Assembly: GCA_963575745.1 (NCBI GenBank) | Contig: CAUYUJ010016690.1 | Location: 28,501-92,500 of the forward strand | Length of the DNA: 64,000 nucleotides | From: Prorocentrum cordatum | Taxonomy: Eukaryota; Sar; Dinophyceae; Prorocentrales; Prorocentraceae | Reading direction: 5' to 3' | In this document: in pieces, positions 29,440 to 56,453 of the stretch | Layout: each line of letters starts with the position of its first letter | Numbering within the stretch: the first letter of the stretch is position 1 | Made by a program: the position numbers and the translations under genes | Notes under the pieces: model-generated | The model's input: the letters and a program-made list of their open reading frames with translations, nothing else | The model's database searches: none | What the model was told of the DNA's origin: nothing

Positions 29440-30285
29440 CCTGCTGGGTTCGGGATTGGCCTCGCCAGGAAGCAGCGGACATTCACCAGGAAATTGAAAG
29501 AATTGGCGAAAGTTTCCCGCTGATTTTTGGTAGCCGGCTGGGTTCCCGAGTTCCGGGTGCCGGGTTCCCCGGCTCCTGGTTATTGGTTTTGGGCCGATTT
29601 CGGTGGGTTTCGGGTTCCCAGGTTCCCGGTCGATCTCCTTATCGATCTCTTGACCGATCCCACGATTCATAAAACCATCCACTGATTTGGGTTTTTTCTC
29701 TGGTGTAATGCACACGCTTGTCTTTGAAAGTAGGTATTTCTGGATGCCCAGCTCCCATTTCTACTTTGGACGCCTTCCTACTCCAAGGGTCGAGCGGGGT
29801 TTCCTCGTCCCTCCTCCTCCAGGGGCGGGCGGAAGCCCAATATCAATATACTTTGAACGCCTTCCTACGTCATGTTTGTACCCAGATCTCGTCGCCCTAC
29901 CTTGATGCTCTTGTCGTCAGGTCCATTCGACTCGGACGCGTCGGACCACTCTGTGGCCACCAGTAGGTCGGACCACTCAGTGGGCACGGATCACCAGCTG
30001 GGAGCTCCCAGCCTCTCGCACATTGCCCACAAGCGTGTTCACATCGAAGACGGTCTGCGCCGTCGAGCTTGATATACGGCCGAGTAGCATGCTGGCATCG
30101 GCTGAGTGCAGCATCGTTCAACCGACCTCTAACCCCATCCCCATCCCTATCCAGACCCCCACCATCTCAGCACCCCAGTTGGGGGTACACCCCTCGAAGC
30201 CCGAAGGAAACAGCCGATATCCCCATCTAGGGGGGTAAATCGGCCAGTTGGGCCCAGGCCACGCTTACGGGGATGGGGGTCAGTT
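29440..30285. other. No gene seen
   Basis: Contains a TTCCCGG/GGGTTCC-rich stretch (29520-29640) and a loose repeat of GACGCCTTCCTAC (29769, 29857). Short ORFs only. Confidence 0.5.
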
Positions 30286-30289
30286 AAAC

Positions 30290-30870
30290 GATGCTCGTGA
30301 GTGCAAAGGTCCTGACTGCTCGGAGCGCCAGCCGATGTCACCCAAGATCGCCTTCACGCGGCTCTTCTCCTCGTCCTTGGTGCTTGAGTCTTTGGCATGA
30401 GCACGTGGAGGTGGTATATAGATCTGATCGATCGTCTTGACGTGGTCCTCATGGTCCATGTTGAAGGAGCTGTCCACCTTCTGGCGGATTGTCACACCCG
30501 TCCGCATGAACCCTCTAGTCTCGCACTCTTTCTCAGCGAACCTGTCCTCGATGTGTTTCCTCGCGCGCTGCTCGGCCGCCGAAAAGGACATCTTCCACGC
30601 TGCTATCCCCGACAGCGATGATGTCCACGTCGCCACTGGCTGCGATGCTCTGAGAGAAGGCCAGATCGCGGACCTTCCCGTGGAGGAGCTCCTTGTCCTG
30701 TTGGGTCGTTTGGCCGTTCGTTTTGCTTGGAGGAGCTTCGTGGTATTTCCCGTAGAGCACGCACACGCAGGGGTCCATATGCACCTGCTTCCAGCCGAAC
30801 TCCGAACTCCAGGGCTTCGCTGATCGCGGTGAACCACTCGATCGCCACCTCCACCAGGCCGCAGACCGCC
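30290..30870 (-). pseudogene. Unrecognised coding remnant upstream of retroelement 1
   Basis: Minus-strand peptides of normal composition in three frames: AIEWFTAISEALEFGVRLEA (about 30850-30790), HGKVRDLAFSQSIAASGDVD and IIAVGDSSVEDVLFGG (about 30700-30580), then ARKHIEDRFAEKECETRGFM and KVDSSFNMDHEDHVKTIDQI (about 30560-30420), with a stop near 30280. At least two shifts are needed. I recognise no family. It may be part of the target into which retroelement 1 inserted. Confidence 0.4.
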
Positions 30871-31005
30871 TTCCGCAGCCTGGTCGCTCATCCTCTCGCT
30901 ATGCCCAGCGCATCGGCGAGCCCGTCCTGTGTCGGCGGGTCCGCCCCCGTCGGCACCTGCCTGCTGCACGCCCGCGGCTGAGCAGCGCGCCCGCCCGTTC
31001 CGGCG

Positions 31006-32190
31006 ATGGGGCCGAAGGCCGAGCCTGGCTTCGTCGTGTGCATGGGCTGCCGTTTCCGCTGGAACTTCCGCAGGAATGCGAAGTGCTGGCTGTGCGGGAT
31101 CGGGCTGGAGCTGGCGCCCTCGAAGCCTTCGCCCCGCGTCGGGGTCTGGGCGGACGACGGCGGCGGCGGCTCCCAACCCGCACTGCGAGGAGGCGGCAGC
31201 GGAGGCCCACCGAAGAATGGCGCCAAGGGCGGCAAGGGCGGCAAGGGCCGTGGAGGAGCCTCCCGTGGCGGCGGTGGTGGTGCAGCCTCCCGTGGCGGCG
31301 GCGGGGGCGCGGGTGGCCGTGGCGGAGGCGCCTTCCCGAAGGCCCCCTGGTCGGCCCCCCCCGAGAGCGAGCTCGAAGCGCTCCTCGCCTGCGGGGACCC
31401 CGCCATCGCGGCCAGGCTGCAGGAGGCAGTCCGTGACGCGCGGGGCTGCGTCGCGCCCGCGGTCGCCCCAGCTCCGAAGCCGCTCGAGCAGAGGCTGCAG
31501 TCGGCCACGGCGAAGCGGATCCACCTCCAGCGCCAGCTCGACGAGGCGGCGGACGCGCTCGTGGCGGCGGAGGACCACCTCGCTCTGTGCCGAGGCTGGC
31601 GCGACGAGGCGGCGGTCAACCTCGCAGAGGCCAAAGAGGAGGAGAACGCCCTCCTCCGCCAGCGAGCCCAAGCGGCTGGTGTCGTGGGCGCCCAGCCCGA
31701 TGGAGCGAGGCAGCTCACCTTCAACTTCGACGCGGAGTCATTCGAGAACTTCGCGGAGCTGGAGGAGGAGGCGCAGGCCACCCTCAGGCGCCTCTGTGAC
31801 GAGGGGCTCCAGATCATGCAGGGGGCGCAGGCTACGTTCGAGCGCAACTGCCAGGAGCACCAGCAGCGCATCAAGCGCCAGATCGAGGAGGAGGTGGCCA
31901 AGAAGCGCAAGCGCACCGAGGAGGGGCCTGCAGCAGCCGTGGCCGCTGGCACCCCCGTGCGGGGCGCGGCCGCCCCGCCGCAGCCAGCAGGACAGGCGGC
32001 CGCCCCTGCTGCTGCCGCCGCCCCAGCAGCAGGCGCTGCGCCTGGTGCAGGGCCCCCCCCAGCGGCCGCCGCGGAGAGCCGAGCGGCAGACGAGGCGGCC
32101 CGACAGCGCGCTGCCGACCAAAAGGCTGCTGCGGCGGCCCCTCCACCTGCTGCTGGCGCTGCTGCTGGCAGCGGCCAGGCCCGCGGGTAG
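31006..32190 (+). CDS. Retroelement 1 ORF1 (zinc-ribbon, coiled-coil RNA-binding protein)
   Basis: 394 codons from an ATG to TAG. A four-cysteine zinc ribbon lies at the N-terminus (C12, C15, C27, C30), then a Gly/Lys/Arg-rich nucleic-acid-binding type stretch (about 60-110), a long helical region rich in Glu/Ala/Arg/Gln with coiled-coil character (about 165-305) and an Ala/Pro-rich tail. The layout is the same as ORF1 of the downstream element (35979-37316), so this is the ORF1 protein of a LINE-like element, expected to coat the element RNA. The +1 frame is also open throughout and carries ORF2 downstream. Intact, no stops. Confidence 0.75.
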   Translation: MGPKAEPGFVVCMGCRFRWNFRRNAKCWLCGIGLELAPSKPSPRVGVWADDGGGGSQPALRGGGSGGPPKNGAKGGKGGKGRGGASRGGGGGAASRGGGGGAGGRGGGAFPKAPWSAPPESELEALLACGDPAIAARLQEAVRDARGCVAPAVAPAPKPLEQRLQSATAKRIHLQRQLDEAADALVAAEDHLALCRGWRDEAAVNLAEAKEEENALLRQRAQAAGVVGAQPDGARQLTFNFDAESFENFAELEEEAQATLRRLCDEGLQIMQGAQATFERNCQEHQQRIKRQIEEEVAKKRKRTEEGPAAAVAAGTPVRGAAAPPQPAGQAAAPAAAAAPAAGAAPGAGPPPAAAAESRAADEAARQRAADQKAAAAAPPPAAGAAAGSGQARG

Positions 32191-35100
32191 CACCCTGCTG
32201 CCAGGCGGCGGCCCCGTGAGCGCGGCGCCGCCCGTCCCAGACGGGGCTGAGGAGGCAGAGGCGGCGGCGCCCAGCCGCCCCGCGGCGAAGGCGGCGCCGA
32301 GCGGTGGCATGCATGCCTACCTGGCGGCCAACGTCGAGGCCGACGCTGGGGAAGGGCTTCCCTTCGCTGGGCCGCTGCTGCGCCAGGGCCGACGCTCCGA
32401 CGATGCGCGCCATGGTTCCGAGTTCAAGGCGCTCAGTAGCAGGACAGAGCCAAGCGCTGCGGCGGACTTGGATGGGCCCGACCGAAGGACTGGCAGTCCT
32501 CAGCCCAGCCAGGGGCCCATACGGAATAGTGGGTACCCAATTCAAGTTGGCGAGGCTAAGGGCGAGGGCGTGAGACCCCCTGAGGTTCGGAGCCCCAAGG
32601 CGGCGGGCAGCCGCCCGCCTGGCGGCCGCGCGGGCGCCGCGGCAGCCGCGAAGCCTGCGGCCCAGCCCCAGCCAGGGCGACCGCAGGCCAAGCCCCTCCA
32701 GCTGGCCAAGCTGCAGCGCACGGAGGCTGTCAGGAAGCTTAGCCCCCTCACCAAGTGCTGGCGCTGCCTCGGGAGGATCGCCAGGCAGCTCAGTGCGGCT
32801 GCTGCCGTCAGCTCACCCCCTGAGGGGCACGGGGGCTACATGAAGCACCTGGTGCAGGAGGCCAAGAGCTTGGGGCCCAAGTTCGAGCAGGCGGGCTGCT
32901 CCATGTTTGAAGGCACTAAGCTGGACTCGCTGACTGAGGTGATCCAAGAGCCCTCTGTGCAAGGGCAGGCCTTCCTGCAGATGATCGAGAGCGCGGCGGC
33001 GAGACTCTGCAAAGAAGAAGCCAAGGCGGCCAGGCTGCGCTGGATGGACTACGTGGACGTGGCCTCGACGAAAGGGGCGAAAGGAGCCCGCGATGTCATA
33101 CGGGACCGCGATCAGGTGCTGGACTCGGTGATCGCGCACTGCCCCGACTGGCTGACTCTCCCCGTTGTAGTCCAGCAAGCCCAGAACCAGATCCGCATAG
33201 AGTGGAAGGCCCTCTGGACAGGTGCCGATAGGGAGCACAGGACCAGACCAGCCGATTGGATATGCTCCATGGTGCTGCCCCCGTTCATTGTGGGCGACAG
33301 CCTCGAGGCGGCGAAGTCGCTCCCGAAGCAGACCGCTCTGGGCTGGGATGCGTTCCACCCGCGGCTGGTCCTCTCCCAGGGCAGGCCCTTCGCCGATATG
33401 ATGGCAGAGGTGCTCACGGTTTGGGTGTTGCAGCCGCAGCCCACGGCCCTCTTCACCACGGTGTTCCTCTTCCTGGGGAAGCCAGACGGAGGCCGCCGCC
33501 CGATCGGCCTCATGGGCAAGTGGTTGCGCATCTGGTGCAGGGTGCGCCGCCGCTACGGTGTCAAGTGGGAGAAGGACCACCAGCCCACTTTGGTCTGGGG
33601 CAAGGATGCGAACAGCTGTGACATGGCGGTCTACCCACACAACCTGGGGCTCGCGCTCGCCCGCCAGCTTGGCTTTGGGGCAGCCTCAGTCTATCTCGAC
33701 GGCAAGTTCTACGCGCGGACCGACCACGACCGTTTCAAGCGAACTGCCGAGTTGGTGAGCTTGATGGGCCACCGCTACGAGGAGCTCTTCTGCCAGGACC
33801 TCTTCGTCGGCGCCCAGTACCAGGTGCAGAGGCCGCGCTGTGACCCTGGCGGGGCGCGCCGCTCGCGCGGCTGGGGCGCGGGCGCACTCGCGGTGCCCGC
33901 GGGCACCCTCGTCTTCACGGACGGCTCCTGCGTCAACAACGACCTGCGGATCAGGAGCGCGGTCTGGTCGGTGGCGGTTCTCACGACCGTTGGCGAGTGG
34001 GTGGTGCAGGCGAGGGGTGCGGCGCCGTCTGCCCTGAAGCTCATCCCCTCCCGTTCGCGGGCGGCCATCGAGCGGGGCGACCTCATGGAGGTAGAGCTCT
34101 TCGGCAACCGCCTCGTGGGCCAGCTCGCGAAGGCGGGCGCGGCGATGCACGCCATCGCCGACGAGGAGGCCCGCTTGCTCCAGGGCTGCCAGGCCCGCAC
34201 CCGCTTCGCGGCGCGCTTCGCCGCCGAGTTCGAGGTCCAGGACACGGAGTCGGGCTTGCGGGAACTCACCCCCTACATTGCGGCGGAGCTCGACGGCGAG
34301 GCCGACCCCCTGTTCGCCGCCGCGGCGGAGCCCGCCCCTGGGACAGGTGGATTCAGCCCACCGAAGTCGCAGTCCCAGGGGCGCGGCCATTTCGGGAAGA
34401 AGCACGACGTGGAGGTGCGCGCGGCTGGCATCGCGGAGCTGGACGCGCGGTTGGCTGCTCCTGACGGCGCGGCGCCGGTGCGCGGCAGCGGCATCTCGGA
34501 ACCCATCGAGCTCCCCGAGGGCCGCGAGGCAGCCGCCGCTGTCGGGCACGCCGCTGGCGGAGGCCCTGGGCAGCCGCCGCGGCCTGCAGACAGCAGCCTG
34601 CCGCCCCCAGCTGCCCCCGTGGTGCGCCGCCCGCGGCAGGTTCGCCAGGCGCCACGCGACGCGGAGCACGTCGCGCTGTATGGCGATGGCAACGTGAAGG
34701 AGATCGACGCGGAGCTTTGCGGTGGCTACGCCGAGGCGCAGGCCTCGGCGGCTGATGGCGGCCCCCTCCTCGCCACGGCGGCGGCCCTGGCAGCGGTGGC
34801 GGCTGCTGGCGCCTCCAGCTCGCGCCCTTCGCCCATGTGGCGCCGCCCCGCCTCGGCCGAGTCGCCCGCGGATGCCCTGCGACGTGTCGCCCAGCGCAGG
34901 GCGCAGGTGCAGCCGAGGCGCCGCGAGGCCTCAGCCCCCGCGCCCTGCCCGCGCCTGGCGGCGGCGGAGGCGGCGAGCAGCGGACCAGCCACTGCGGAGG
35001 CGGCTGATGCAGCCCGTCCAGCGGGATGGAGGGTCAACGTCCACCTCCTCATGGAGTCGAGAGTCGAAGGAGGCGACTCCGAGCCCTTCTTGGTCTGCGC

Positions 35101-35650
35101 GGCTTGCTGGATGCACTGCCGCCTCCCCAGGTACGCGCACCGCGGCCTGGGCAAGCAGTGCGGGGCCAGCGCGGCGGCTGGGCAGCCCAAGTGCAAGAAG
35201 GGATCCAGGGCCCAGGCGCGGTCGGACTTCGCTCGCGGCATCCTGCCAGCGTCGAAGGAGCTGATCGCGCCGCTGGCCTCGCCAACGGAGTGCACGCGCC
35301 GGCGCTGGGCGGCGGCGCTCCAGGCCAGGCAGGGCCACGGCGCGGCGGGGCAGGCGCTCGTGGCAACGCCCGTGCCAGCGCAGCGGCTGCCAGCAGCCGC
35401 CCAGCCCCCACCGCCTGCGGCTGGCGCTGGGAGCCAGGCGGCTGCGCCGCCGTGCGCCGCGGCTACGCGGCGGCTGGCCGCGGCGGCCCCGCGGGAGGAG
35501 GCCGCCGAGCCGCGGCGGTCCCGCCCAGGGCTCGAGGGCGCGCGTGGAGCCCACGGCTTCGCGGACGCAGCGGCGGCCCGCGAGCGCGGGCGAGCCGCGA
35601 CGGCAGCGGCCGCCCGCGCAGGCCGCGTGGGGACGCGCGCCGCGGTCTGA
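32171..35650 (+). CDS. Retroelement 1 ORF2, internally deleted but in frame
   Basis: Continuous +1-frame reading after ORF1; no start codon can be assigned. Compared with ORF2 of the downstream element it keeps (i) RKLSPLTKCWRCLGRIARQL (about 32730-32790), (ii) the RT fingers ADWICSMVLPP, ALGWDAFHPRLV and FLGKPDGGRRPIGLMGKWLR and motif A VYLDGKFYARTDH (about 33690-33730), (iii) ELFCQDLFV leading into the RNase H start LVFTDGSC (33912-33935) and end ELFGNRLVGQLAKAGAAMHA, and (iv) a C-terminal Cys motif VCAACWMHC (about 35095). It lacks the whole endonuclease, RT motifs B and C with thumb and zinc finger, and the RNase H middle with its second and third acidic residues. Each loss keeps the frame. 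It cannot encode a working RT; it may be a non-autonomous derivative. Confidence 0.75.
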   Translation, partial: AARPAGSTLLPGGGPVSAAPPVPDGAEEAEAAAPSRPAAKAAPSGGMHAYLAANVEADAGEGLPFAGPLLRQGRRSDDARHGSEFKALSSRTEPSAAADLDGPDRRTGSPQPSQGPIRNSGYPIQVGEAKGEGVRPPEVRSPKAAGSRPPGGRAGAAAAAKPAAQPQPGRPQAKPLQLAKLQRTEAVRKLSPLTKCWRCLGRIARQLSAAAAVSSPPEGHGGYMKHLVQEAKSLGPKFEQAGCSMFEGTKLDSLTEVIQEPSVQGQAFLQMIESAAARLCKEEAKAARLRWMDYVDVASTKGAKGARDVIRDRDQVLDSVIAHCPDWLTLPVVVQQAQNQIRIEWKALWTGADREHRTRPADWICSMVLPPFIVGDSLEAAKSLPKQTALGWDAFHPRLVLSQGRPFADMMAEVLTVWVLQPQPTALFTTVFLFLGKPDGGRRPIGLMGKWLRIWCRVRRRYGVKWEKDHQPTLVWGKDANSCDMAVYPHNLGLALARQLGFGAASVYLDGKFYARTDHDRFKRTAELVSLMGHRYEELFCQDLFVGAQYQVQRPRCDPGGARRSRGWGAGALAVPAGTLVFTDGSCVNNDLRIRSAVWSVAVLTTVGEWVVQARGAAPSALKLIPSRSRAAIERGDLMEVELFGNRLVGQLAKAGAAMHAIADEEARLLQGCQARTRFAARFAAEFEVQDTESGLRELTPYIAAELDGEADPLFAAAAEPAPGTGGFSPPKSQSQGRGHFGKKHDVEVRAAGIAELDARLAAPDGAAPVRGSGISEPIELPEGREAAAAVGHAAGGGPGQPPRPADSSLPPPAAPVVRRPRQVRQAPRDAEHVALYGDGNVKEIDAELCGGYAEAQASAADGGPLLATAAALAAVAAAGASSSRPSPMWRRPASAESPADALRRVAQRRAQVQPRRREASAPAPCPRLAAAEAASSGPATAEAADAARPAGWRVNVHLLMESRVEGGDSEPFLVCAACWMHCRLPRYAHRGLGKQCGASAAAGQPKCKKGSRAQARSDFARGILPASKELIAPLASPTECTRRRWAAALQARQGHGAAGQALVATPVPAQRLPAAAQPPPPAAGAGSQAAAPPCAAATRRLAAAAPREEAAEPRRSRPGLEGARGAHGFADAAAARERGRAATAAAARAGRVGTRAAV

Positions 35651-35751
35651 GGCGGCCTCGGCAGGCGGCTGTAAGCGCCCGCGCGGCCCTCCGCCTCTCC
35701 GCCTTGAATTTATGCAAGAATCCGCCGAGCCCGCTCGGCGCCCACACAGAT

Positions 35752-35761
35752 AAAAAAAAAA
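35752..35761 (+). other. A-tail of retroelement 1
   Basis: Ten adenines directly before TGTCATGGCGCC. The same TGTCATGGCGCC follows the A-run of retroelement 2 at 43907, so this is the 3' end of element 1 plus its flank. Confidence 0.7.
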
Positions 35762-35773
35762 TGTCATGGCGCC
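35762..35773 (+). repeat. 5' target-site duplication of retroelement 2
   Basis: TGTCATGGCGCC, exact copy of 43907-43918; with preceding adenines the match may reach 19 bp. Confidence 0.85.
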
Positions 35774-35795
35774 TCCGTAGCCATTTTGGCTCAAG
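35774..35795 (+). other. Genomic dinoflagellate spliced leader (DinoSL), perfect copy
   Basis: Begins TCCGTAGCCATTTTGGC and ends TCAAG: all 22 positions match the published DinoSL, with T at the variable first base. It is not an SL RNA gene: no GT donor follows; instead a second, diverged leader follows at once. Confidence 0.95.
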
Positions 35796-35818
35796 TCCGT
35801 AGCCGTTTCTGGCACAAG
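35796..35818 (+). other. Second, degenerate DinoSL relic
   Basis: TCCGTAGCCGTTTCTGGCACAAG, 23 nt, differs from the leader by a few substitutions and one insertion. It sits immediately after the perfect copy, as expected if an earlier integrated copy with SL was transcribed and trans-spliced again. Confidence 0.8.
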
Positions 35819-35978
35819 GGCTTGAAGTCACCTGGCGTGGGGGAGGCGCGCCCCCGCCCGCGATCCTGCGGCCAGGTTGGCTGCAGACATACTTGCGTGA
35901 GCTCCTGGCGGAGCAGCTCCCGTGAGGAGCACCGTACCCTGCAACGACGTCCAGGATTTGCCTCCTGGTGCTCGCCCC

Positions 35979-37316
35979 ATGGCTCCTGCTCCTGCGGCCG
36001 TGCGGCCTCCGTGGTGGAAGCTGCCGACCAAGTTCGTGTCACCACCCTGGGGAGGTCAACAGAAGCAGCAGTGGCAGGCATGGCGAGACATCGGCTACGA
36101 CGACGACCTCGAGGGCTGGCACCAGGTGGGGCAAAATGGAGGTGGGCCGTGGTGCAGTAAGTGCGGCTGCAAGAAGAACTCCAAGGGCAGCAAGTTCTGC
36201 AAAGCCTGCGGTCATAAGCTCTCGGACATCAGCCCAGCCGTCGCTGCCGAACCCGCTGGGGTCTCGAGCGAGCAGCGAAGACAGCACGGGGATGCCGATG
36301 GCAAGGGCGGAAAAGGCGGCAAGAAGGGCAAGAAAGGCAAGGACTCGGGCAAAGGTGACGGCGGCAAAGGTGGTAAAGGGGGCCGTGTTGAGGGAGCAGC
36401 AGGCGGTGACCCAGCCAAGCTTCCTCGAGCGCCTGGTGCACAGTTCCTGGTGGCCCAGGAGGGGCCTTCGGTGGAGCTTGAGTTCCACGAGCTGGAGCAG
36501 CTGGTGGCCACGCTGGAGAAGCTGGGCGACACGGTCAGCCTCGCGAAGCACAGGCGCACCCTTCAAGAACGGCGACGACTCCAGCAGGAGGCGCTCCATG
36601 TGCCGCCATTGTCGCAGAGAGTCACGCAGGCCCACAAGCAGGTGCAGGACATCGCGCAGAAGCTGGAGAAGGCGGCGCTGCACTTCGAGCGGCTCGAGGA
36701 GGGCCTCGAGAGCCAGAGGCGGTGGGTCCAATCTCTTTGCGAGGACATGGAGTCGAAGAAGGCTGAGCACCGCAAGCTGGTGGTTGAGCTCAATCGTCAG
36801 GTGGTCGACATCAGCCAGGACTCAACTCCGTCAGTGGCCCCCATCAGTGTGGCTGGCATCCTCGACGGCTCCATCGAGGAAATTCCTCTTTCGTTTGCTG
36901 GCCTGGGGTTCGACGACGAGGAATACGAGATGGATGCAAATGACAAGAAGGAGCTGGCAGATCGCAGCGCCCGCCTCAAGAGCGAGCTGTCCAACGCCGT
37001 CAAGCAAATGTTCGGGCAGGCGGCAGAGAAGGCCAAACTCTTCAAGGAGGAGCAGGAAGCCATGGCTCTACGGCTGGCTGGGAAGAGGCGGCGTCAGGGT
37101 TCAGGCCCTGAAGACCCTGGCTCAGCAGGGGCGGCCGCTGCAGGATCAGCTCCGAGAGGCAAGGACGGAGAGGCAGCGGACTCCGACGCGACGACGCCGC
37201 CGCCTCCTTCCGCAGCCAAGCAGTCGCCCAAGGAGGAGGAGTCATCCAGAGACAACTTCGAGCAGAGGGCGGCCAGGATCTGTCGCCCGCCGCCCCCTCA
37301 GGCGGACTCTGCCTGA
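35979..37316 (+). CDS. Retroelement 2 ORF1 (zinc-ribbon, coiled-coil protein)
   Basis: 445 codons from the first in-frame ATG to TGA. Zinc ribbon C59, C62, C74, C77 within WCSKCGCKKNSKGSKFCKAC; a Gly/Lys basic stretch follows (GGKGGKKGKKGKDSGKG). A long coiled-coil region spans about residues 150-350 (ELEQLVATLEKLGDTVSLAK, QVQDIAQKLEKAALHFERLE). The C-terminus is acidic and Ser/Pro-rich. The architecture matches ORF1 of element 1. Expected to bind element RNA and form multimers, by analogy with LINE ORF1 proteins. ORF2 overlaps or follows in the +1 frame. About 160 nt separate the DinoSL from the ATG. Confidence 0.8.
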   Translation: MAPAPAAVRPPWWKLPTKFVSPPWGGQQKQQWQAWRDIGYDDDLEGWHQVGQNGGGPWCSKCGCKKNSKGSKFCKACGHKLSDISPAVAAEPAGVSSEQRRQHGDADGKGGKGGKKGKKGKDSGKGDGGKGGKGGRVEGAAGGDPAKLPRAPGAQFLVAQEGPSVELEFHELEQLVATLEKLGDTVSLAKHRRTLQERRRLQQEALHVPPLSQRVTQAHKQVQDIAQKLEKAALHFERLEEGLESQRRWVQSLCEDMESKKAEHRKLVVELNRQVVDISQDSTPSVAPISVAGILDGSIEEIPLSFAGLGFDDEEYEMDANDKKELADRSARLKSELSNAVKQMFGQAAEKAKLFKEEQEAMALRLAGKRRRQGSGPEDPGSAGAAAAGSAPRGKDGEAADSDATTPPPPSAAKQSPKEEESSRDNFEQRAARICRPPPPQADSA

Positions 37317-40300
37317 GGGGGCGGACCCAGTTGACGCAGAGGCTGAGGGTGATCGGCGGACGCCCTTGGCCGAGGCAGCTGGATCTCTTCGACCAGCGGA
37401 CCGTTTCTGGAGCAACAAGTCCGTGGACCTCGACTGGCCTCAAGTCGGGGGGGTTTGGGTCCCTGCCCTGGCGCGTCCAGACAAGGGGGCCACGTTGATC
37501 GGGAGGCAGTGCTGCAAGCAGCTGTGCGCCGTGCCCGAGGCAGTCCTGCCCGAGCCCTTGGGGCAGAGGCCTGCGGTTATGGGGCTCCCACCCGATGCTG
37601 CTGATCCTGAGTGGCAGGCCATCCAGGACTTCAACGACATGCGGGCGGACCTCAGGGACTGGGCTGCCGCCTGGTTTGACTCTCACACTGGGCTGGAGAC
37701 AGACAGCGGGCACTGGAGGCGCTGGCGCAAGGCTTTCCTGGGCGCGATGCTCGCGGACGGCGGGAACGAGCCGCTCAGGCGCCTACTGAGGATCTGGTTC
37801 CCAGGCTGGCACTTGGACAATATCCTGGACGAGCTATGCCTCAGAGGCTGGAGGCAGTCAGAGCCCCGCCGCATTGCCTTTCTGGTCAGGCTCAACAGTG
37901 CCCAGCCTCTGGATCGGTGGCGACTCGAGCACGCGCACTGGAGGCAACTGGCGCAGATCAGGGCCATGGTTCGCCGACTACTTGGGGACAGAGCTCCTGG
38001 AGACCCAGTGCCGCCTCAGAGGCCTGGTGGGGGAAGGGGGTCGGACCCTACTCGTCGGCCTGACCCTGATGACGACCAGGCGATGGACTACGTCGACAAC
38101 CTGACGGCGAAGCTGCTCATGCTGTCGCACGCGACCCCGCAGCAGTCTCCTGGCGGCAGGGCCTGTCCCAGCCAAGCCAACCTGCACGTGGAGCAAGCCA
38201 GCCTTGGTTCGCCCTGGTCAGCAAAGGGAGCCTCTTCGGTTTCGCGGACTGCGGTGTCAGAACGCATCCCTGGACTAACACGCCAGAGCAAGGTAAGACC
38301 TGGTCCCGAGTGCTCCTCGAGCTCGGGCCAGGCTCAGACGCCACCCGCTGAATCAAGACCTTCGCCTGTCGAGAGGGTCGTGGGTGTTGCAGTCAGTCCA
38401 AGCTGGGACTCAAGAAGCTTTCTCAACTCCAGCGTCACGGTGGACACCCTGGGCCTCCGATCTGTCCCAGAGCTGCAGAACACCAAGGGGGACGTCTTGC
38501 CACAGAGGGAGGGGCCGCTAACGCTCTGCTTGGCCAAGCTTGTGGCGCCGCCTGTGGCTAGCCCAGCGCCCTTCATCTCTCTGAATGGCACGACATGGAA
38601 GGAGGCGCAGACGGAGCTTGAGCGCCTCTCGGACTCTGGCTTAAAGGACGATGTCTACCTTATCCAGGAGACGCGCTTCACGGGGAAGGAGAAGGAGATC
38701 GAGGCCATCGGATGGGGCACTCGCAACGGCCTTAACGCTTCATTCAGCCCATGCAGGAGAACGGGAAGCTCGGCCCAGTCGGTGTCATCGAGGGTTGGCT
38801 GTCTTGTGGCGGCACACAGAGGATCAGCACCCGTGGACCATGACTGGGGTATTTTCAGCTCGCGGCTTCTCGCTCGCAGGGTGGTATTCGGGGACTTGAT
38901 GGTGATCGTGGTCAGTGCCTACCTGGAGCACTCCGCCAAGATGACGGGCACAAACGTGGAGCTGCTGAGCGAGCTGCAGGTCTTCCTCAACTCTCAGTGC
39001 GAGCCTTTTATTGTGGCAGCTGACTGGAACATGGAGCCGCAGCTGTTGGAGAGCTCGTGGTGGCCGCGTTCTGTGGGCGGGGCAGTCGCGGCGCCCAAGT
39101 TTCCTACCTGCTCAGTGACCTCGGGGAACGATCGAGTATACGACTACTTCGTGATATCGGCCTCCCTTGCGGCTCTCAGCCTAACGGCAGAAGTGCTTCG
39201 GCCAACGTCTACACACCCCCATGCTCCAGTGCGTCTTACTTTCAGCAAGCTGGGGGCCCATGCCAAGGTCCGGGTATTGCGAGGCCCCAAGCGATTCGAC
39301 CTGTCGACGCACATCTCGGACGAGGACCAGCAGAAGGCGGTGGAAGACGCTCAGGACATAGTCTGGCAGGCGGCCCTGCCCGCTCCAGGCGTGGGGCCAG
39401 ACGAGGCAGTGCGAGAGTTCTTCGACAAAGCGGAGACCCACCTGATTGGCATGCTGGGTCTCAGTGACGGCCCCAAGTACCGTGGCAGAGCGGACGGGCT
39501 CAAGCGGGTAGAGATCAGCCTCAAGGACCCCCAGCGTACTGAGACTTCCAGAAAGGTAAGCCCTTTGACGAGGTTGTGGCTTTCTCTCGGCAGGCTGGTC
39601 AAGCAACTCAGGGCGGCAGCTTCGGTCTCAGAGCCAGCAACATGCCATACGCTATACATGAAGCACCTGGAACGGGCGATCCTCTCACTGGCAGTTCAGT
39701 TCGACAGCTTGGGCAACCCGGTGTTCAACGGCACCAAGATGGAGGCGATGGTCCACGAGGTCAGGAGCGGCTCCATGGAAGGGCTGCAGGTGTTGAAGGC
39801 CATCGCCAGGGTCACTGACAAGCACGTCAAGGGCGATGCGTCTGCAGCTAGGACCCGCTGGAAGGAGTTCGTGGACGAGTCGCTGGCTGGAGGAGGCCGT
39901 GGAGCTCATGCCATTGGCAAGAAGGTCCACGGCGAGGCGAAGCCGATCTTGGCGGACGGCAGCGGCGACTCGCCTCCCGTGCCACTGGTGGGCCAAGCGG
40001 CATTGGATCAGATGCTAGTGGAATGGAAGGCCCTGTGGAGCTGCGGGGGCGGCCAGCAGATGAGGCCTGCTGACTGGATCACCACGTCGGACCTGCCCCC
40101 GACCACGGCAGAGCAGGTGATAGCGTCGGCGAAGACGTTCGCGAAGAAGACGGCGCTCGGCTGGGACGGCCTCCACCCCAGGCTGCTGAAGATGCTAGGA
40201 TGGCCTTTTGCGCAGCGCATGGCGGACGTTCTGACGCAATGGGAAAGGCACCCGCAGCCGACGGCGATGTTCACTACGCTTATCGTCTTCTTGGGCAAGC

Positions 40301-43300
40301 CTGGGGGAGGACATCGCCCCATCGGCCTGATGTGCTTTTGGCTCAGAGTTTGGGGAAGGATTCGCAGGCAGTATTGTTTACAATGGGAGCGTGAACACCG
40401 CCTTCCTGAGATATGGGGCAGCAGCTCTGACACCTGCTGCGATAGAGCAGCGTGCTTGCACAACCTGCACCTGGGCCTCGCTCGGAAGGTCGGTTTCGAA
40501 GGTGTCTCGGTGCACTTTGACATTAGCAAGTTCTACGAGCGGATCGACCACGGGCTGCTGCTGAACGCGGCCGAGCTGAATGGTTTCTGCACAGGATTGG
40601 TACGTGCGCTCTGTGTGGCGTACTCGGGCCCGAGGCGGGCTACGGCAGACAGCGCCGTCAGCGAGGAGATACATGCGAGGGGCACGGTCATAGCTGGCTG
40701 CTCGTGTGCAACAACGATGGCCAGACTCATGCTGATGGACCTTCTAGTCAAGAGCCGAGCCAATCTCCCCATCGGGAGGATCGTCAACGTGATTGACGAC
40801 ATCTCGGGCAATGGTATCGGATCCAGAGGTGTGCTAGTCAGCCAGGTGAACAGCTTCGTCCAGGGCGTCGTGGCGATGCTGAGGGACAAGCGGCTACCGA
40901 TCAACTGGGGCAAGACGAAGGTGCTGGCATCCTCAGTGGACACCCAGCGCGAGCTGATGAAGCAGGAGGGGTGGCCGCTGGACAGGGACGCCTTTGCTCA
41001 AGGACACCGAGATCTCGGTGGCGACGCGACGGCTGGTGGCCACCGTATGGTGGCGACGCAGGTCAAGCGGGAGCTGGATGCACCCCGTCAGGCAGCGAGA
41101 TTGTCACGCATCTTCCGGCCTGGGCTGCGGCAAGCTCGGGTGATGCGAGCTGGGCCGACCGCCAAGGCGCTCTGGGGCTCGGCCATCTCTGGCGTTCCAC
41201 CTGGGCGCATGAGGGCGCTGAGGGTGGCCGCGGCGAAGAGCGCGGGTCGCCTGCCGCCTGGGGCGGCCCTCAGCTTTGCACTGCAGTGTGCTCCCCGTGG
41301 CTGGCGGCAGGACCCGCTGGTGGTCGCAGTGGGAATGGCAGCGCAGGCATTCGTCAACGTGGTGTGGTCTGGGCAAGCCTCTGCTGCAGCCATCCAAGCG
41401 TGCATCCACGAAAGCCAGCAGGTGCTAAGCAAGCAGCGGCCTTGGAGCTCAGTCCGTCAGCCGATAGCGGCGCTCACGCTCACCCTGCAGAGGATAGGCT
41501 GGCAGCTCGCCGTCGACGGCACCAAGCTGCTGGACGAGGACAAGAGGGAGTTCGAGGTGCTGCATTTCTCGCCCGCTTTCCTGGCGGAGTGGGCCAGAGA
41601 GGCCACGAGGAAAGCGGCCGCGCTGGAGGAGGCTCGTGATCGTCCTGGATCGCTCTGGCCATGGAGGCTGCCGCCACAGTGGAGGCCAGTCAACGAGCTG
41701 CTTGGCAAGAAGGAGACGGAGACCTGGACTGGGCACCACAAAGGGTGCCTCCGCTGGCTCGTCTCGCCCTCGCACTGGCCCCAGGACCGTCTTGCGAGGC
41801 ACTCCTCGGACATCGACCCTTTCTGCAAGCTATGCCAGGCTGCACGAGGAACGATGTTCCACAGGCACCACGTGTGCCCAGCTTGGGAACCTTGGCGGCG
41901 CGACAGGCTGCCGCCCGACCTGAAGCGTGCAGCTTGGGTAGTCCACGAGTTGGGCCCGCCGTTCGATGAGCTGTTCTGCCAGGGCCTGTTCGTGGATCCC
42001 TCCCAGCTGTTGCACCGCCCGTGCTGGCAGCCTCAATGGGAGCGGCTCTCGCATGGTTGGCATGAAGCAGTTGTGGTCGAAGACGGTGCCATGGTTTTCA
42101 CCGACGGCTCCTGTATCCTCGGTGACTTTCCGCGCCTGCGCAGCGCTGGCTGGTCGGTCGTCGTTCTGTCCAAGGAAGGGGCGATCCTAGCAGAGGCGTG
42201 GGGAGCTGTTCCCCCTAGTCTATGCCCATCGCAGACGGCGCGTGCTGGAGAAGACTACGCAGCGGTGGTGGCGCTCACGGAGGTCATTGGCAATTACCAG
42301 CTGCTGATCGATTGCAAGGGCACAGTGGACTCGGCGCTCAACCTTGGCAGAGCTCAGGGCCTAACCTCGACCTACGCCCATCTTTGGGCCAGAGTTGGGG
42401 ACGCCGCGGAATGTGTGGAAGTCAAGCACATTCCTGCACATCGGTCAGAAGCAGCTGTGGCCAGAGGGGAGCTATCTGCTACCGAGCTCTTCGGCAACCG
42501 CCTAGCCGACAAGCGAGCGAAGGAAGGAGCCGCCCTCCACGCCCTTCCAGCCGACGATGTCCAGCTCCTGGAGGGCTGCTTAGCCAGGGCTCGCGACGCA
42601 GCCCGCTTCGCCGCAGAGATCGAGGTCTACATCACGGATTCTGGGATGCGAGACTGCTGGCCGGCGGAAGCCCTGGACAACGTCAACCTCCAGCCGTACC
42701 TCTACCCGTGGAACCTGTCGTGGGAGTACGAGGACTACGACTTGTTGGACGCCTCCACGGCGCAGCGTGGCAGAGGCTCGGCAGCTGCGTCGGCGGCAGC
42801 CTTCGCCGCGGCGGCAGCGACCAGCGCAGCGGCCTCAGGCGCAGCGGCAGGCGCCGCGGGCGGCGCAGCTGGGCCTACTCGAAAGCGCCCAGCGGCTGCG
42901 CTGAGGGCCGCATCCGCCCCAGCCGCCCCCATCGCGGTGGGGCCAGGCGAGGAGGGCAGTCATCGTGCTGAGGCAGCGAGCGAGGTGTCTGCCAGAGAGG
43001 TTCGGCGCAGGGCGGAGGCCAGGTCGGCAGCAGAGTCCTCTCAGCACACCCAGCTAGAGGAGCAACGCCCGTCACCTGTCCCCACGGCTGGACCAGAGCC
43101 ATGGGTAGTGCACGGCCACAACATTATGCAGACCAACGTGGTGAGCAAGCCGAGTGAGGCCATCCTGGTGTGCACGCGCTGCTTCATGTACTGCCACCAG
43201 CCGCGGTGTGCGCACAGGGGCCTGGCCAAGCCGTGTGTCGGTGGCGATCACAGATCGAGCCAAGGGTCGCGTGCTCAGGCCAGGACTGACTTCGGCAGAT

Positions 43301-43785
43301 TACGATTGCCAGGCAAGGAGAAGCCGCCGATCGTGATGCTCAAGTCGCCGACGTTGGAGGAGAGGCAGCGCTGGCGAAGGTCGCTCAAGGTGGACGACCT
43401 CGACTGGCCCAACCCCCAGGTGGGCGAGCTCCTGGCGGTGGCGCGGGCTGGCGGCCCAGGAGGCCCGCCTAGGCCTGCGGCTGCACAGACTGCGGCGGGG
43501 CGTGCTGCTGGCGCGGCTGAGCCTGCGGGCGGTGCGGCGGCGGCTTCGGCGAGCGCCTCGGCAGCCGTGGGCGCGGCGGCGGTGCAGCCCGCGGTGCGCG
43601 CGGGCTTGCAGGAGCTCCTTGTGCCCGACCTGGAGGGCGTCCTCCGCGCGCACGGCTTCGCGTCGGCGGACGACGCCCGCGCCCGAGGGCGAGAGGCAGC
43701 CCAGGTGCGCGGGGGGCGTGACCGCGCGCTGGAGCGCGGCGAGGCGGCCCCGCGGGCGGCGAGGAGGCGGGGCCGACGCTGGTGA
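37317..43785 (+). CDS. Retroelement 2 ORF2: endonuclease, reverse transcriptase, RNase H
   Basis: Intact polyprotein-like ORF; the start is unresolved (first ATG after ORF1 at 37579, but the +1 frame is open through all of ORF1). Domains: apurinic-type endonuclease about 38570-39240, with LIQETRF (metal-binding Glu), ADWNME (Asp at 39022), DYFV and THPHAPVRL; RT about 40060-40960, with ALGWDGLHPRLL, FLGKPGGGHRPIGLM, motif A FDISKFYERIDH (Asp 40519), motif B GTVIAGCSCATTMARLML and motif C VIDD (Asp pair 40795-40800); a CCHHC-type zinc motif FCKLCQ...HRHHVC near 41820; RNase H about 42090-42540, with FTDGS (Asp 42103), EDYAAVVAL, LIDCKGTV and ELFGNRLADKRA; an Ala-rich linker; and a terminal Cys/His motif VCTRCFMYCHQPRCAH near 43170. 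It provides nicking, cDNA synthesis and RNA removal for retrotransposition. Confidence 0.88.
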
Positions 43786-43899
43786 GCGCCCCCCTCGGCC
43801 GCCGTGGGGCCCTCGGCAGTCCCGCGCCGTTTGCGCGGGCCTGCGGCCGCTGAGAATTTGTGGCATGACCACGCGGGGGCTCGCGCCCGCTCGAAGAGT

Positions 43900-43918
43900 A
43901 AAAAAATGTCATGGCGCC
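43900..43918 (+). other. A-tail and 3' target-site duplication of retroelement 2
   Basis: Seven adenines (43900-43906) then TGTCATGGCGCC, identical to the sequence between the A-run of element 1 and the DinoSL. Original 3' flank of element 1 resumes here (AGCATCGCAGAGCGG). Confidence 0.85.
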
Positions 43919-50000: not shown

Positions 50001-51001
50001 GAGCATGGTGATGATGCGGACAACGATGAGAGGGACGACGAGGGCAAGGAGAACACCGAAGACGAGCGGTGCGATGAGGATACGAAGAGGGGCTGCTGCG
50101 GAAGTTTGTGAGGGTGTCAGGGATGGAGAAGTGGAGTGAGGACGAGCAGTGCGATGATGATGTGAAGAAGAGGTACCGCAGGGGGCGGCAGGGATTGAGG
50201 AGAGAGGGTCGAGGGCAGGAGGGAGCAGGCAGCAAGGAAGAGATGGCAGGAGAAGAGAGAAGAGAAGGGGAATGAAGCAGAAGGATAAGGAGGAGATATG
50301 AGGGAGGTGGAACGTAGCACGGATCTGAGTGGGCCCCGGAATCGGCAGGGCCGTTTTTTCACCGTTTCCGAAAACATGTCTCTTGATAGTGGAAACGGCA
50401 AAAAACGGGCGAAACAACTGCTCCAGGAGTGGAACCGGAGCCGGAACCGGTGAACAAACGGCGTCGGAACCTCAGCAATATGGAGGTTGGGGTCTAGCAG
50501 GCTGGGGTTTGTGTTGACTCCCCCTCCCCCTCCCCGCGCCCACTGAGCCTTGCCCCTCCTTCGCGCGCTTGCCAGCTAGCGCTCCTTCACAAGAAAATCT
50601 TCCACCTCCCAAGCTAAGGAAGGAGGGGGGAGGGGGGCGGGGGCAGGAAACGGAGAGAAGGAGGAGGAGGTGGAGGAGGAGGAGGGGGAGGGGGAAAAGG
50701 AGGAAGGAGGAGGAGGGGGAGGAGGCGGAGGAGGAGCAGGGGGAGGAGGAGGAAGAAAAGGGGGAGGACTGGGTCATGCCAGTGAAACCATGCCCCCGAC
50801 GGCTGGGCGGGACGCGCATGTGTAGAAGTGTCGTGCATCTGCTTCCCGCTGGGGTCTTGGCCCGATTTCGGCCCCCCGCAGGGGTGGCCCAGAGGGGGGG
50901 GCGGTCGGCCTCCCAGCTCCGCGTCTTCGAGTGGCAGAGGGGGAGGGGAGGGGGCAAGTCAGGCCCACCCCCTCTTCCTGGCTGAGGCCAATCACTGCAC
51001 G
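50001..51001. other. No gene; GGA tract and an inverted repeat
   Basis: Imperfect inverted repeat (GCCGTTTTTTCACCGTTTCC at 50351-50370 against GGAAACGGCAAAAAACGGGC at 50391-50410), then a GGA tract at 50655-50762. The sequence just upstream of 51001 is the promoter-side flank of the next gene, with no recognisable promoter element. Confidence 0.6.
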
Positions 51002-51019
51002 TCCGCATTTTGGCTCAAA
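51002..51019 (+). other. Degenerate DinoSL relic upstream of a gene
   Basis: TCCG followed by CATTTTGGCTCAAA: the leader with four bases (TAGC) missing. It lies 66 bp upstream of an ATG. Confidence 0.65.
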
Positions 51020-51914: not shown

Positions 51915-53132
51915 TCGGAGACCCGAGCAGGCGAGGACCTACAAACCGTGCAAAAATCTCGACGCTTCGCGTATCCCCACCAGGCCACCCAGAAACGACG
52001 CCCAGGCGAGTTGGGGCAATGAGGGAAGTGTGGGAGCCGAGCAGGGGACGGCCGAACCGAGCGAAGGAGGGATGAGGAGAAGGAGGATGCTGGATGAATG
52101 GATGGATGAGGGAGCGTGGAGGATAATGATGGATAGGAGGGCGCGTCCTCAAGAGGCCCCAATAGCGGGGGCACGATATGGCATTCCAAGCGTTCCGTTC
52201 CCCCCGAGATAGGCCCAAGAGACCCCCGGAAGCCCCCGAGGCGCCCCCGAGAGACCCGAGGGCGCCCCGAAGACGCGCCCAAGAAGCCCCCATAACGCCC
52301 CCCGAACATTTCGTCGCTCACGAGCTCTCGGGAGGTAGGTCTAGTGTTACAAGGGTTGTTTGGGCCCGCTGGCCTCGCCCTTGTCCTCGGGCCCTCCCCG
52401 TGGCACAGTGAGGGGCTTTGCAAAGCGTCAGTAGGTTAGCTCCTGCTTTGGGGGGGGGGGAATTCGTTACGTTTCCCCCCGTGCGGGGCCTCAACAAAGC
52501 CACGAGGATGGGCTGGCATCCCCCAGCATTACATCACCTGCAAGCCCCCCGACCCTCGCTGGTCAACCGAAGTGTGGGAACCGTTTTCTGGCCACCTGAG
52601 GCTTGCTGACCTTCTGGCGACCCCGAGCGGCCTCCTGAGGTCACCAGCGGGAGGTTCCCGCAGCTTGCTTCGGTGACCTTCTGGGGCCCCCAAGCGGCCT
52701 CCTGAGGTCACCAGCGGGAGGTTCCCGCAGCTTGCGTCGGTGACCTTCTGGGGCCCCCAAGCGGCCTCCTGAGGTCACCGGCCTGGGGTTCCCACAGCTT
52801 GCGTCGGTGACCTTCTGGGGTCCCTAGCGGCCTCCTGAGGTCACCGGCTGGGGGTTCCCACAGCTTGCGTCGCGTGGCTTGCGCCGCAATGCGGCCGGAA
52901 ACACTTCCGTCGCCGTGCGCGGGCCAAGAGAGCCCCAACAGGTCCCAACAGCGGGGGTCCGATATGACATACAGGCTGCAACGCATGCAAATATGTTGAG
53001 CAGGGGGTCGTTCGTGTCCGCCACCGCCCAGGTCCAGGGGGGGGGGGCATGGGGGGGATAAACCCCCCCCCGAAGGGAAGAAGGGGGCTGGAAGAGGAAG
53101 CGCTCTAGACTACTTACGCCCAGAGGGCTGGT
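51915..53132 (+). repeat. ~1.2-kb dispersed repeat, copy 1 (inside intron)
   Basis: From AGACCCGAGCAGGCGAG to GACTACTTACGCCCAGAGGG; aligns end to end with 56955-58175. It contains GGAGGATAATGATGGAT, a 11-bp-word-like section (52200-52300), four 67-bp units, and the leader-to-tail stretch GCAATGCGGCCGGAAACACT. Confidence 0.85.
52628..52895 (+). repeat. 67-bp tandem units (x4) with internal palindrome
   Basis: CGGCCTCCTGAGGTCACC at 52628, 52695, 52762 and 52828. Each unit contains GAGGTCACC and GGTGACCTTC as an inverted pair, so the array can fold into serial hairpins. Confidence 0.9.
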
Positions 53133-53615: not shown

Positions 53616-54377
53616 GCTCCTGCTTCCTGCTGCGCAGGGCGTCCGCCATTGCAACGATGGCCCAGGATGATATTATTTCTGTGCTGCGGCCCTGTGCTCG
53701 CGATCGGGGCCCGCAGTGCGAGTGACAGAATGCGTTCAGTCGTCGCCGTCGCCGTCGCCCACCCAGGTTGTCGCCCATCGATCGTCTGTCATCGTCGAGT
53801 GCGAGGCTGCAGTCGGGCGAGGCCCGCGGCAAAGTAAAGGTTGACGGTTGCACGAAGCGCTTCAATGCGCGTCGATATCATCGATGTCGAGGGCCATCGT
53901 CGAACAGCACTCTCTCTTAGGTTAAGTAGCTGCGCCGCGCTCGCAGGGCGCGGGGGGAGGAGGGGGGAGGGAGAGGGAAGGGGGGAAGGGGTCAAGGGGA
54001 GGGGGGACTAGGACTGGGACGGCGGCCTGCCTTCGAAGAGGCAGGTCCAAGAAACGCGGGCAGAGCAAGAACAGAAGGCGACCGCGCCTTGCGCGAGTCG
54101 CTCACCCCGGAATGCACGGGGGCACTGGCGCGCAAGACATGCCCCGACAGAACAGTAGGACAGCGCATGCACATAGCAAACCTGCTATGCAAAATCTGCT
54201 ATCCCACTAAATGGGGTGGATGGTCTGGTCGAGACACCCGCCTAATTGCAACGCTTCGGGGACGAGGTGGGGGGCCCGAGCCAGACTAGGAGACGCAACT
54301 GTTGGGCCCCCCGGCTCATCATATAGCCGCGTGAGCGCTGGCAACACAGGACTCAAAGTCGTCGTCGACACCTTGAT
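53616..54377. other. Intergenic, no gene seen
   Basis: 3' flank of gene 1 and 5' flank of gene 2. A purine-rich GGGGAGG stretch at 53950-54010; otherwise unique sequence. Confidence 0.5.
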
Positions 54378-54398
54378 CCCGTAGCCATTTGGGCTCAG
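54378..54398 (+). other. Degenerate DinoSL relic upstream of gene 2
   Basis: CCCGTAGCCATTTGGGCTCAG: the leader with one substitution and one missing A. It lies 60 bp upstream of the ATG at 54458. Confidence 0.8.
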
Positions 54399-54457
54399 AA
54401 GGCCATGAGTTTGCCAGCTATCCAAGCGAACGCTTAGATTTGTCTCGACTCGCGCAG

Positions 54458-55527
54458 ATGTCGCTGCAGTCTTGGAAGCCATCTTACTTTGTCTCCAGAA
54501 CCCCGTCTGGAGGTATATTGTGGCATGCAAAGGTCCTCAGATCCGCAGATGACACGCGTGCGGTCTGGGAGATCCGCGGCATATTCAATCACTGGGAGTG
54601 GGGTGAATCGTGGCACCTTTCACATTGGGTACGACAGCTCAAGGACACCTTCAACAAGTGGTGGGCGAGGGCAGGGCTGGGACAGGACCTGATCATCGAC
54701 TCCCAGAGGAAGGCTTCTACGAGGAAGTCCAACCCTGAAGAAGTTGGCCGCGACCATGCCACAGAAGACATGCTTGCCACTGCGCCTTTGCTCGTTCTTC
54801 TGTTCAACTTGACGCACGCTGATCGGAAGAAAACTCGGTCTCATGCGAAGGCCGTGCTTGACGCGATCATCGACTTTGCTGACGTCGGCTCCTTCGACCC
54901 CCTCCCTGCTCTTGCGTTATGTGGCATGGGTCGGGACTCGCTCGGGCAGTGCTACCACGTGCGGGGTGCAGCGAGCGAGGTGCGCAAGGCGATGGCCGAT
55001 GGCACGTTGAGGCGCGTGCTGACCGGTGAGATCTCGCAGTTCCGCTCGAGTGGGTGCCCATGTGGCGCCGACTGGTTCAAGCGAGTCGTTCATGGACTTG
55101 CCGCGTCTCTGAATGCTCGGGCGCACCTGTTGACAGCGAAGTTAGAGGACCTGCCGCCGATCAGGGGTCGCTGCAGAGCTCGCCGCCTGGATCCCGACTG
55201 GTGCGAGCGAGTCGCCATCGGCTGCGTCCAAGACGGCATCGCTCGGTCGGCCAGTGGCGTCGGCAAGGCCAAGGAGGGGCACGATGCGAGGCAGAGCACC
55301 TACAGGAGCGCCACGAAGCTGGTCATGAGCAGGTACGCGTGGAACTTGGGCAAGGTTTTCAACGGCCAGCGCCAGCTCAACGTGTGCACCGATGGCTCGT
55401 GGGGCAGTCGGGCCGAAAATCTCACCATGGTCGCCTGGTCCCGCAAGCTCGGCCAGGGAGCCTGGCCCCCTCCTCAGGCTCCAGGACTGGGCAATCGAAA
55501 AATGGGTCGACCATCAAATTGTTCCAG
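54458..55527 (+). CDS. Uncharacterised protein gene 2, exon 1
   Basis: Starts MSLQSWKPSYFVSRTPSGG; the same frame is open back to the relic leader. About 355 codons of mixed composition (AVWEIRGIFNHWEWGESWHL, DMLATAPLLVLLFNLTHADR, GEISQFRSSGCPCGADWFKR, CERVAIGCVQDGIARSASGV, VFNGQRQLNVCTDGSWGSRA). No family recognised; TDGS recalls an RNase H start, but the other motifs are missing. Near 55466 a C-run (GGCCCCCTCC) appears one base too long: after it, the reading LLRLQDWAIEKWVDHQIVP lies in the next frame and leads to the splice donor (AG|GTGGCA at 55527/55528). So either a one-base frameshift or a sequence error. The relic SL indicates retroposition origin. Confidence 0.65.
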
Positions 55528-56453
55528 GTGGCACACGTGCTCATTCCCCTTTCGCGTTTTCGCTTTTCCTGCTTCCCGACGCCCCAAGACAGCCCAGGAG
55601 GTCCCAAATATTGTCCCAGGACGGCCTCAGAGGCCCCCAAGAGCCCAGGCGGCCCAGGACAGCCCACGACGCCCCCCGGACGGCCCAGAAAGCTTCCAAG
55701 ACAGGCCGACCCACGCGTGGAGCTCCCCGACCACGGACCCACATTTGGAGCTCTCCGACCAAAGGGGCCCCCAGGAGGGCCCACATGTGGAGCTCTCCGA
55801 CCCGCATTTGGAGCTCTCCCAAATGAGACCCCCAGGAGGACTCACATTTTGAGCTCACCTGTAAAGGAGCAAGGACACACATTTAGGGCTCTCCGACCGA
55901 AGAGACCCCCGGGAGGACCCACGAGGCCCCCAAGAGGCCCCAAGAAGCCCTCAAGAGGCCCAAAGGAAGTTCCGAGAGGCCCCCAAGAGGGCCCCAACAC
56001 TGCCCAAACGGACAACACGGGAACCAACATTATGAGCCCCATTGACATCCTTTGCTTTGTTCTTCTCTGTCTCGCATATCACACCCGCCTGTTCTCTACG
56101 GTCGGGGCTCGTGGCAGTATCAAGTTTCAAGGCTCCGCTGAATTGGTTTGTGTAGTGCCGCGCGTTCCCCATTCGTTTTTTTCCCGTTCCGTACTCTGTC
56201 ACACGCACAAGGCAGGCAGGGAAAAGGCAGGCAGGCGGGCAGGCAAGCAGGCTCCCAGGGGCCCCCCGAAGCACATTGGGGGTAACCGGTGGGCCATTCC
56301 TCCCACTCAGCATGACATCGTGGACTCGTTACTTGGCCTCTGCCTCCCATTTCGTGGGCGGCAACAATTTTCCGTGCATCCGTCATTTTGTGAATGTTGC
56401 ACATGCAACTGTGCTCCCGCTCGGGTTTTGGATTGCCAATTTTTGTCTGGCAG
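55528..56453 (+). other. Repeat-filled intron of gene 2 (926 bp)
   Basis: GTGGCACACG at the donor, TTTTTGTCTGGCAG at the acceptor, with the exonic context CCAG|GT and GCAG|GT on the two sides. Splicing gives a phase-1 join, VPG followed by ARFCFQPAGVV. The interior holds 11-bp words (55570-55700, 55910-56000) and ~48-bp units around GGAGCTCTCCGACC (55745-55900). Confidence 0.6.

Follow-up and report, generated by a model that had tools for sequence, protein, structure and literature searches.

A 64-kb stretch of dinoflagellate DNA (hereafter the window; GC content 62.7%) carries an 8.1-kb long interspersed nuclear element (LINE) at positions 35774–43906. Its genomic copy begins at base 1 of the dinoflagellate spliced leader (DinoSL) and ends in a run of seven A. 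The sequence shows it to be the genomic copy of an RNA that has a spliced leader (SL) at its 5' end and an A-tail at its 3' end; a direct repeat of the target-site type bounds it on both sides. A copy that begins at the leader suggests that a finished mRNA was copied back into DNA. We consider it likely that the template was the trans-spliced, polyadenylated mRNA of the element itself, and that the copy was made by target-primed reverse transcription.

Anatomy and boundaries of the SL-headed LINE

The LINE lies on the plus strand, directly behind an older relative that we call element A. From left to right, the sequence runs through the terminal hairpin of element A, the A-tail of element A (10 A, 35752–35761) and the 12-mer TGTCATGGCGCC (35762–35773), the last two forming the insertion site (35752–35773). 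Then follow a perfect 22-nt spliced leader (SL1, 35774–35795), a degenerate but full-length second leader directly behind it (SL2, 35796–35818), a 5' untranslated region (UTR, 35819–35978), open reading frame 1 (ORF1, 35979–37316) and the ORF2 frame (37303–43785, +1 relative to ORF1). A 3' UTR with a terminal GC-rich hairpin (43786–43899), the A-tail of seven A (43900–43906) and a right-hand copy of TGTCATGGCGCC (43907–43918) complete the order before other sequence begins. An earlier first-pass annotation had described intact ORF1 and ORF2, an A-run at the end and a 12-bp repeat on both sides, and all of these were recovered. Its span of 35758–43918 was too wide for the element proper, and SL2 was absent from its account.

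The two copies of TGTCATGGCGCC stand directly outside the element ends, and they are the only sites in the whole window when up to one mismatch is allowed. Shuffled sequences contained two or more such matches in 8 of 100 cases; hence the count of TGTCATGGCGCC alone is weak proof of a target-site duplication, and it is the position at both ends that provides the proof. The exact stretch shared by both flanks, A's included, is 19 nt long (AAAAAAATGTCATGGCGCC). Moreover, when all 63,988 window positions were scanned for a preceding 12-mer that recurs directly behind an A-run of at least five within 36–48 kb, a single position qualified, the start of the element. Comparison of the first and last 2 kb of the element for long terminal repeats (LTRs) gave no match above 20 nt (best E-value 0.032). 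As is typical of LINEs, the element therefore combines a 3' tail (A7) and a target-site duplication of 12 to 19 bp with a lack of LTRs.

The start of the element at base 1 of a perfect DinoSL, as claimed in the first-pass annotation, was confirmed. The 21-nt leader core CCGTAGCCATTTTGGCTCAAG occupies 35775–35795 without a mismatch, and with the preceding T (35774) the 22-mer is complete; the core was not matched in 100 shuffles even with up to three mismatches allowed. A genomic DinoSL thus heads a copied mRNA, as in DinoSL retrocopies. SL1 lies inside the target-site duplication and stops exactly at the end of the SL exon, where SL2 follows with neither an SL intron nor a splice donor. In an apparent SL RNA gene used for comparison (contig L003, see below), the exon runs on into GTACGC, a splice donor, which the window sequence does not. 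The location inside the duplication, the exact exon end and the lack of an SL intron mean that the leader belongs to the inserted unit. Together with the A-run at the other end, they argue for an mRNA template. A trans-spliced, polyadenylated template, first put forward in the first-pass annotation, is thus well supported by the sequence of the one copy at hand.

The second leader and the proposed route of copying

We searched both strands of the window for sites within three edits of the leader and found SL1, SL2 and one site ending at 54398, compared with none in 60 Markov-random windows. SL2 (edit distance 3) is 23 nt long and begins with TCCGTAG, so its first seven bases are kept and it differs from the 15-nt relic known as DinoRL. 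Tandem leaders are an accepted mark of re-trans-splicing of a retrocopy (PMC12014239, PMC6050394), and in the relic form described so far the first seven bases of DinoSL have been spliced out (PMC12014239). Retention of these bases in SL2 indicates that the acceptor used was the AG directly in front of SL2. This AG could come either from the flanking DNA of the parental copy or from the AAG end of a leader that was already present.

We simulated decay of the parental copy (200 runs per rate, with ORFs scored as stop-free or not). If SL2 had been the only leader of the parent, its decay in place by 9.1% or 13.6% would have brought about 18 or 26 stops into the parental ORFs, and at neither rate was any of the 200 runs stop-free. 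At 2.8%, the lower end of the 95% interval for three changes in 22, 3 of 200 runs were stop-free. We regard this as good but not overwhelming evidence that SL2 is too decayed to have aged during one residence of a copy with open ORFs. It was likely passed on over several rounds under selection, in each of which SL1 was made anew. The second leader suggests that the element went through more than one round of trans-splicing and retrotransposition in which the outer leader was renewed.

The route that we propose is as follows. A parental copy would be transcribed from upstream, by read-through or from a flanking promoter, and host SL trans-splicing would join the 22-nt leader to the AG acceptor directly before SL2. 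The element RNA would be polyadenylated and bound by its own ORF1 and ORF2 proteins. The endonuclease would nick the T-run opposite the A-tail of element A, and this T-run would prime on the A-tail of the element RNA. Reverse transcription would then reach the very first base of the leader, leaving a full-length copy with a duplication of 12 to 19 bp. SL2 would be the leader of an earlier round, carried along through several rounds, while SL1 would be replaced each time; the AAG that closes the old SL1 may have been the acceptor. The strand opposite the A-tail of element A is a T-run and hence a possible primer, which fits an endonuclease with a preference for A-tracts.

The first-pass annotation had also proposed that an element headed by SL must find its promoter by other means, either read-through or an internal promoter. 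The first of these options gains from the full length of SL2: a parental RNA that retained SL2 must have started upstream of it, and read-through or a flanking promoter is the likelier source. A promoter inside SL2, after the TTT(G) motif idea (PMC6050394), is disfavoured, since an RNA starting behind SL2 could not carry SL2.

Several points weigh against this account. The 5' end of only one copy was examined, and the evidence is genomic DNA. SL2 keeps the first seven bases that are missing from the published relic (PMC12014239), so that the usual acceptor inside the leader went unused. The age of SL2 is estimated from three changes (95% interval 2.8–40%) or from two substitutions (from 1.1%), and at 1% decay 25 of 200 simulated copies stay open. 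As to generality, no SL-like sequence was found in 30500–31006 in front of element A (best edit distance 7, a value equalled or bettered in 23 of 126 window blocks), the 5' end of element A being itself undefined. A protein search with the reverse transcriptase (RT) part of ORF2 scored 7,995 candidates and yielded two Amphidinium carterae proteins (25–33%) but no close copy from P. cordatum.

DinoSL relics are marks of retroposed dinoflagellate genes, and 22–23% of genes in two Symbiodinium genomes were counted as retrogenes by such relics (PMC6050394). The same 2018 review gave the type of the responsible retroelement as unknown. More tentatively, the element may stand for a LINE lineage without a 5' end of its own, in which trans-splicing would renew the leader in each round (with the old AAG as acceptor), expression would depend on read-through at whatever site a copy has landed in, and the RT would be the engine of dinoflagellate mRNA recycling. 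We put the chance of this broader scenario at somewhat under even. Two published statements do not favour a LINE as the general engine: LTR elements (Ty1/copia) were thought likelier in the review (PMC6050394), and 14 of 14 retrotransposon-like clusters in Oxyrrhis expressed sequence tags were Ty1/copia (PMC3942190). LINE-mediated retroposition has been argued for virus-derived insertions (PMC10235124), and the LINEs of Symbiodiniaceae have been portrayed as what is left of an ancient expansion (PMC8045281). An SL-headed LINE whose frame for endonuclease and RT is intact is a concrete rival candidate for the dinoflagellate retroposition machinery, with signatures that can be checked (A-tail, duplication and A-tract target). 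If the scenario is true, an RT used to SL-capped, polyadenylated RNA would be the long-sought engine of massive mRNA recycling in dinoflagellates.

Alternative origins and comparison with known systems

SL1 could in principle be encoded by the element itself, as a mimic of the leader that is transcribed from DNA and maintained by selection, with no trans-splicing in the last round. The perfection of SL1 and its place exactly at the 5' end speak for a mimic, and a single copy does not tell the two readings apart; molecular mimicry has been suggested for a dinoRNAV assembly with a 5' SL (PMC10235124). We nevertheless think a mimic unlikely: the contrast between the perfect SL1 and the decayed SL2 next to it fits fresh addition, and host mRNAs receive a leader anyway, which makes mimicry unnecessary.

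A one-off chimera, in which the RT switched template from the element RNA to SL RNA or a different mRNA with a leader, as has been proposed for U6/LINE-1 chimeras, has still less in its favour and is in our view improbable. LINE-1 does join small RNAs to its 5' end, and duplications often flank such chimeras, but the U6 part is consistently full-length (PMC13174262). A switch to SL RNA should likewise have brought in more than the exon, whereas here only the exon is present. Furthermore, this exon ends at the splice point and is followed by a second SL, not by the SL intron.

The flanking repeat raises a separate question, namely whether TGTCATGGCGCC is the conserved 3' end of this LINE group and not a target-site duplication, so that two elements would simply stand in tandem. 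The 12-mer does follow both A-runs, and the 3' hairpin regions of element A and the LINE are homologous (34 of 55 columns; the score was reached in 0 of 1000 shuffles). At this background identity of 62%, however, a match of 12 out of 12 is expected with a probability of only about 0.3% (0.62^12). In addition, LINE tails, as far as is known, directly adjoin target DNA, and an intact element would on this explanation be left without a duplication. We therefore give a shared 3' end very little credence, and keep to target-primed insertion of a trans-spliced RNA.

Insertion into an SL RNA gene, with the leader as part of the target, can be dismissed on anatomy. SL RNA genes are the exclusive target of SLACS, and a transcription start at +1 of the interrupted gene has been suggested for it (PMC3447711). 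Here, the SL falls within the duplication, another LINE's tail makes up the left flank, the leader runs into neither an SL intron nor a donor, and Rfam gave no match at the gathering cut-off in the whole window, although the library may hold no dinoflagellate SL RNA family. A 5' end defined by a ribozyme was likewise rejected. Neither the 5' UTR nor the wider region 35600–36400 had an Rfam match up to an E-value of 1, so no HDV-like ribozyme of the L1Tc/R2 type was found at the 5' end, which leaves room for a ribozyme of an undescribed kind.

Both component phenomena are known, and what is new is that a single element with open frames unites them. The element resembles DinoRL retrogenes in being a genomic copy of a trans-spliced mRNA with tandem leaders that mark rounds (PMC12014239, PMC6050394), but here the copied mRNA is that of a retrotransposon itself and the second leader is full-length instead of a 15-nt relic. 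With APE-type LINEs that carry RNase H it shares two ORFs, an endonuclease-RT-RNase H order, an A-tail, a duplication and insertion at an A-tract. It departs from them in its host-supplied 5' end, in the VIDD motif of its RT and in an ORF2 frame conserved across the ORF1 stop.

The literature listings and passages covered by our search describe no dinoflagellate LINE headed by a spliced leader; leader-bearing retrotransposons have been suggested in Schistosoma, subject to a reservation about the assembly (PMC5832876). There, six fusions of SL exon and transposable element in S. mansoni were read as possibly trans-spliced and retro-transcribed. In that case the SL is internal to gene bodies and may be an assembly artefact (PMC5832876), whereas the present element is full-length, with exact ends, a duplication and an A-tail. 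L1Tc and related trypanosomatid LINEs also live in a host with SL trans-splicing and gene clusters. They have reached the opposite solution, with their own 5' Pr77 promoter and ribozyme and unspliced transcripts (PMC8190864), and thus offer a natural contrast. SLACS RNA is likewise thought to begin with leader sequence, but the leader is gained by insertion into the SL RNA gene (PMC3447711), which is not the case here.

Coding frames, relatives and neighbouring sequences

ORF1 (445 aa) runs from the ATG at 35979 to the TGA at 37314–37316. It has close P. cordatum relatives and a weak zinc-ribbon-like match below the curated cut-off. The ORF2 frame is open as far as the TGA at 43783–43785; its 2,156 codons contain no stop, for which random sequence with the same composition gives a log10 P near –25.8. 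ORF1 ends with GCC TGA, and the ORF2 frame is open in +1 across 37303–37320. The ORF2-frame peptide LPEGADP, which spans the ORF1 stop, is found in all five close P. cordatum gene models, and two ORF1 relatives (P0019 and P0022) stop where ORF1 of the window does. The first ORF2-frame ATG past the ORF1 stop lies 88 codons on, at 37579, and is kept in four of the five gene models; the next, at 37639, is kept in all five. Judging from these frames, ORF2 may be expressed either by a +1 frameshift or by ordinary restart.

ORF2 encodes an APE-like endonuclease, an RT and an RNase H, in this order; an endonuclease followed by an RT in one protein is a LINE arrangement. The endonuclease and RT share their folds with those of LINE-1, TRAS1 and R2, and the nearest solved parts are the human LINE-1 RT, the TRAS1 endonuclease and the R2 RT. 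The RNase H domain (42088–42531) has a weak Pfam match with conserved D1597, D1666 and D1732, and a further RNase H match, obtained with an alignment, derives from the rows of relatives, the window's own row stopping before RNase H. The aspartates of RT (motif VIDD) and RNase H are common to 14–15 of 15 alignment rows. In the endonuclease, N424, E452, D610 and H636 are kept in 13–14 of 15 rows, and D570 and N572 in 9 and 8. We take the listed residues of all three domains to be catalytic, so ORF2 appears to retain the catalytic residues of a LINE. A single-sequence search of ORF2 against PDB gave two matches (E-values 0.46 and 6.8), neither of them relevant. By its domains and structural likeness, the element is a dinoflagellate LINE of the APE type that carries an RNase H.

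A protein search with ORF1 returned nine proteins at E ≤ 0.001 among 7,995 scored candidates. Five are the P. cordatum gene models mentioned above (82–93% identity over the alignment); the other four, two of them from P. cordatum, are 55–59% identical. One close model, P0014, consists of residues 1–371 of the 445 in the window's ORF1 followed by an exact 291-residue piece of its ORF2 frame, and is probably the gene model of the window locus. The remaining four are spread over as many further P. cordatum contigs. Given these matches, the window is very probably from Prorocentrum cordatum, and the family is, by its predicted proteins, multicopy at least for ORF1 and the N-terminal part of ORF2.

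Searches of viral contigs with ORF2 gave no match. An alignment of ORF2 and P0001 gave 167 pattern matches in viral contigs and 57 in genome contigs, none of which was confirmed. The tandem-SL pattern did not occur in viral contigs; the single SL pattern occurred in one viral and two genome contigs. The viral one (L001, IMG/VR) holds the perfect leader core twice, at a distance of 147 nt and within AT-rich DNA (2746–2913, minus strand). L003, a contig of a Dehalococcoidia metagenome-assembled genome (MAG), carries an apparent dinoflagellate-type SL RNA gene with the SL exon followed by GTACGC (4334–4354, minus strand), and is likely misbinned. In L002, another Dehalococcoidia MAG contig, a perfect leader core (32–52) stands behind a TCA repeat at the contig end.

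Element A (31006–35761, plus strand; its left limit is provisionally placed at the ATG of the ORF1 frame) belongs to the same LINE group and is without an endonuclease and most of the RT. We found no copy of TGTCATGGCGCC in 29501–31010 (best edit distance 3) that could form a duplication of its own. Further downstream, the degenerate DinoSL at 54377–54398 (edit distance 3) heads a 487-aa ORF frame (54389–55852) and is probably an ordinary retrogene relic. It is flanked by two 1.2-kb copies (51918–53131 and 56964–58173) that are 92.7% identical. A weaker SL-like site at 50997–51019 (edit distance 5; 2 for the 15-nt core) is possibly an older relic or a chance match. Finally, a 1.7-kb direct repeat (10403–12083 and 22403–24081) with 99.7% identity reflects either a recent duplication or a matter of assembly.

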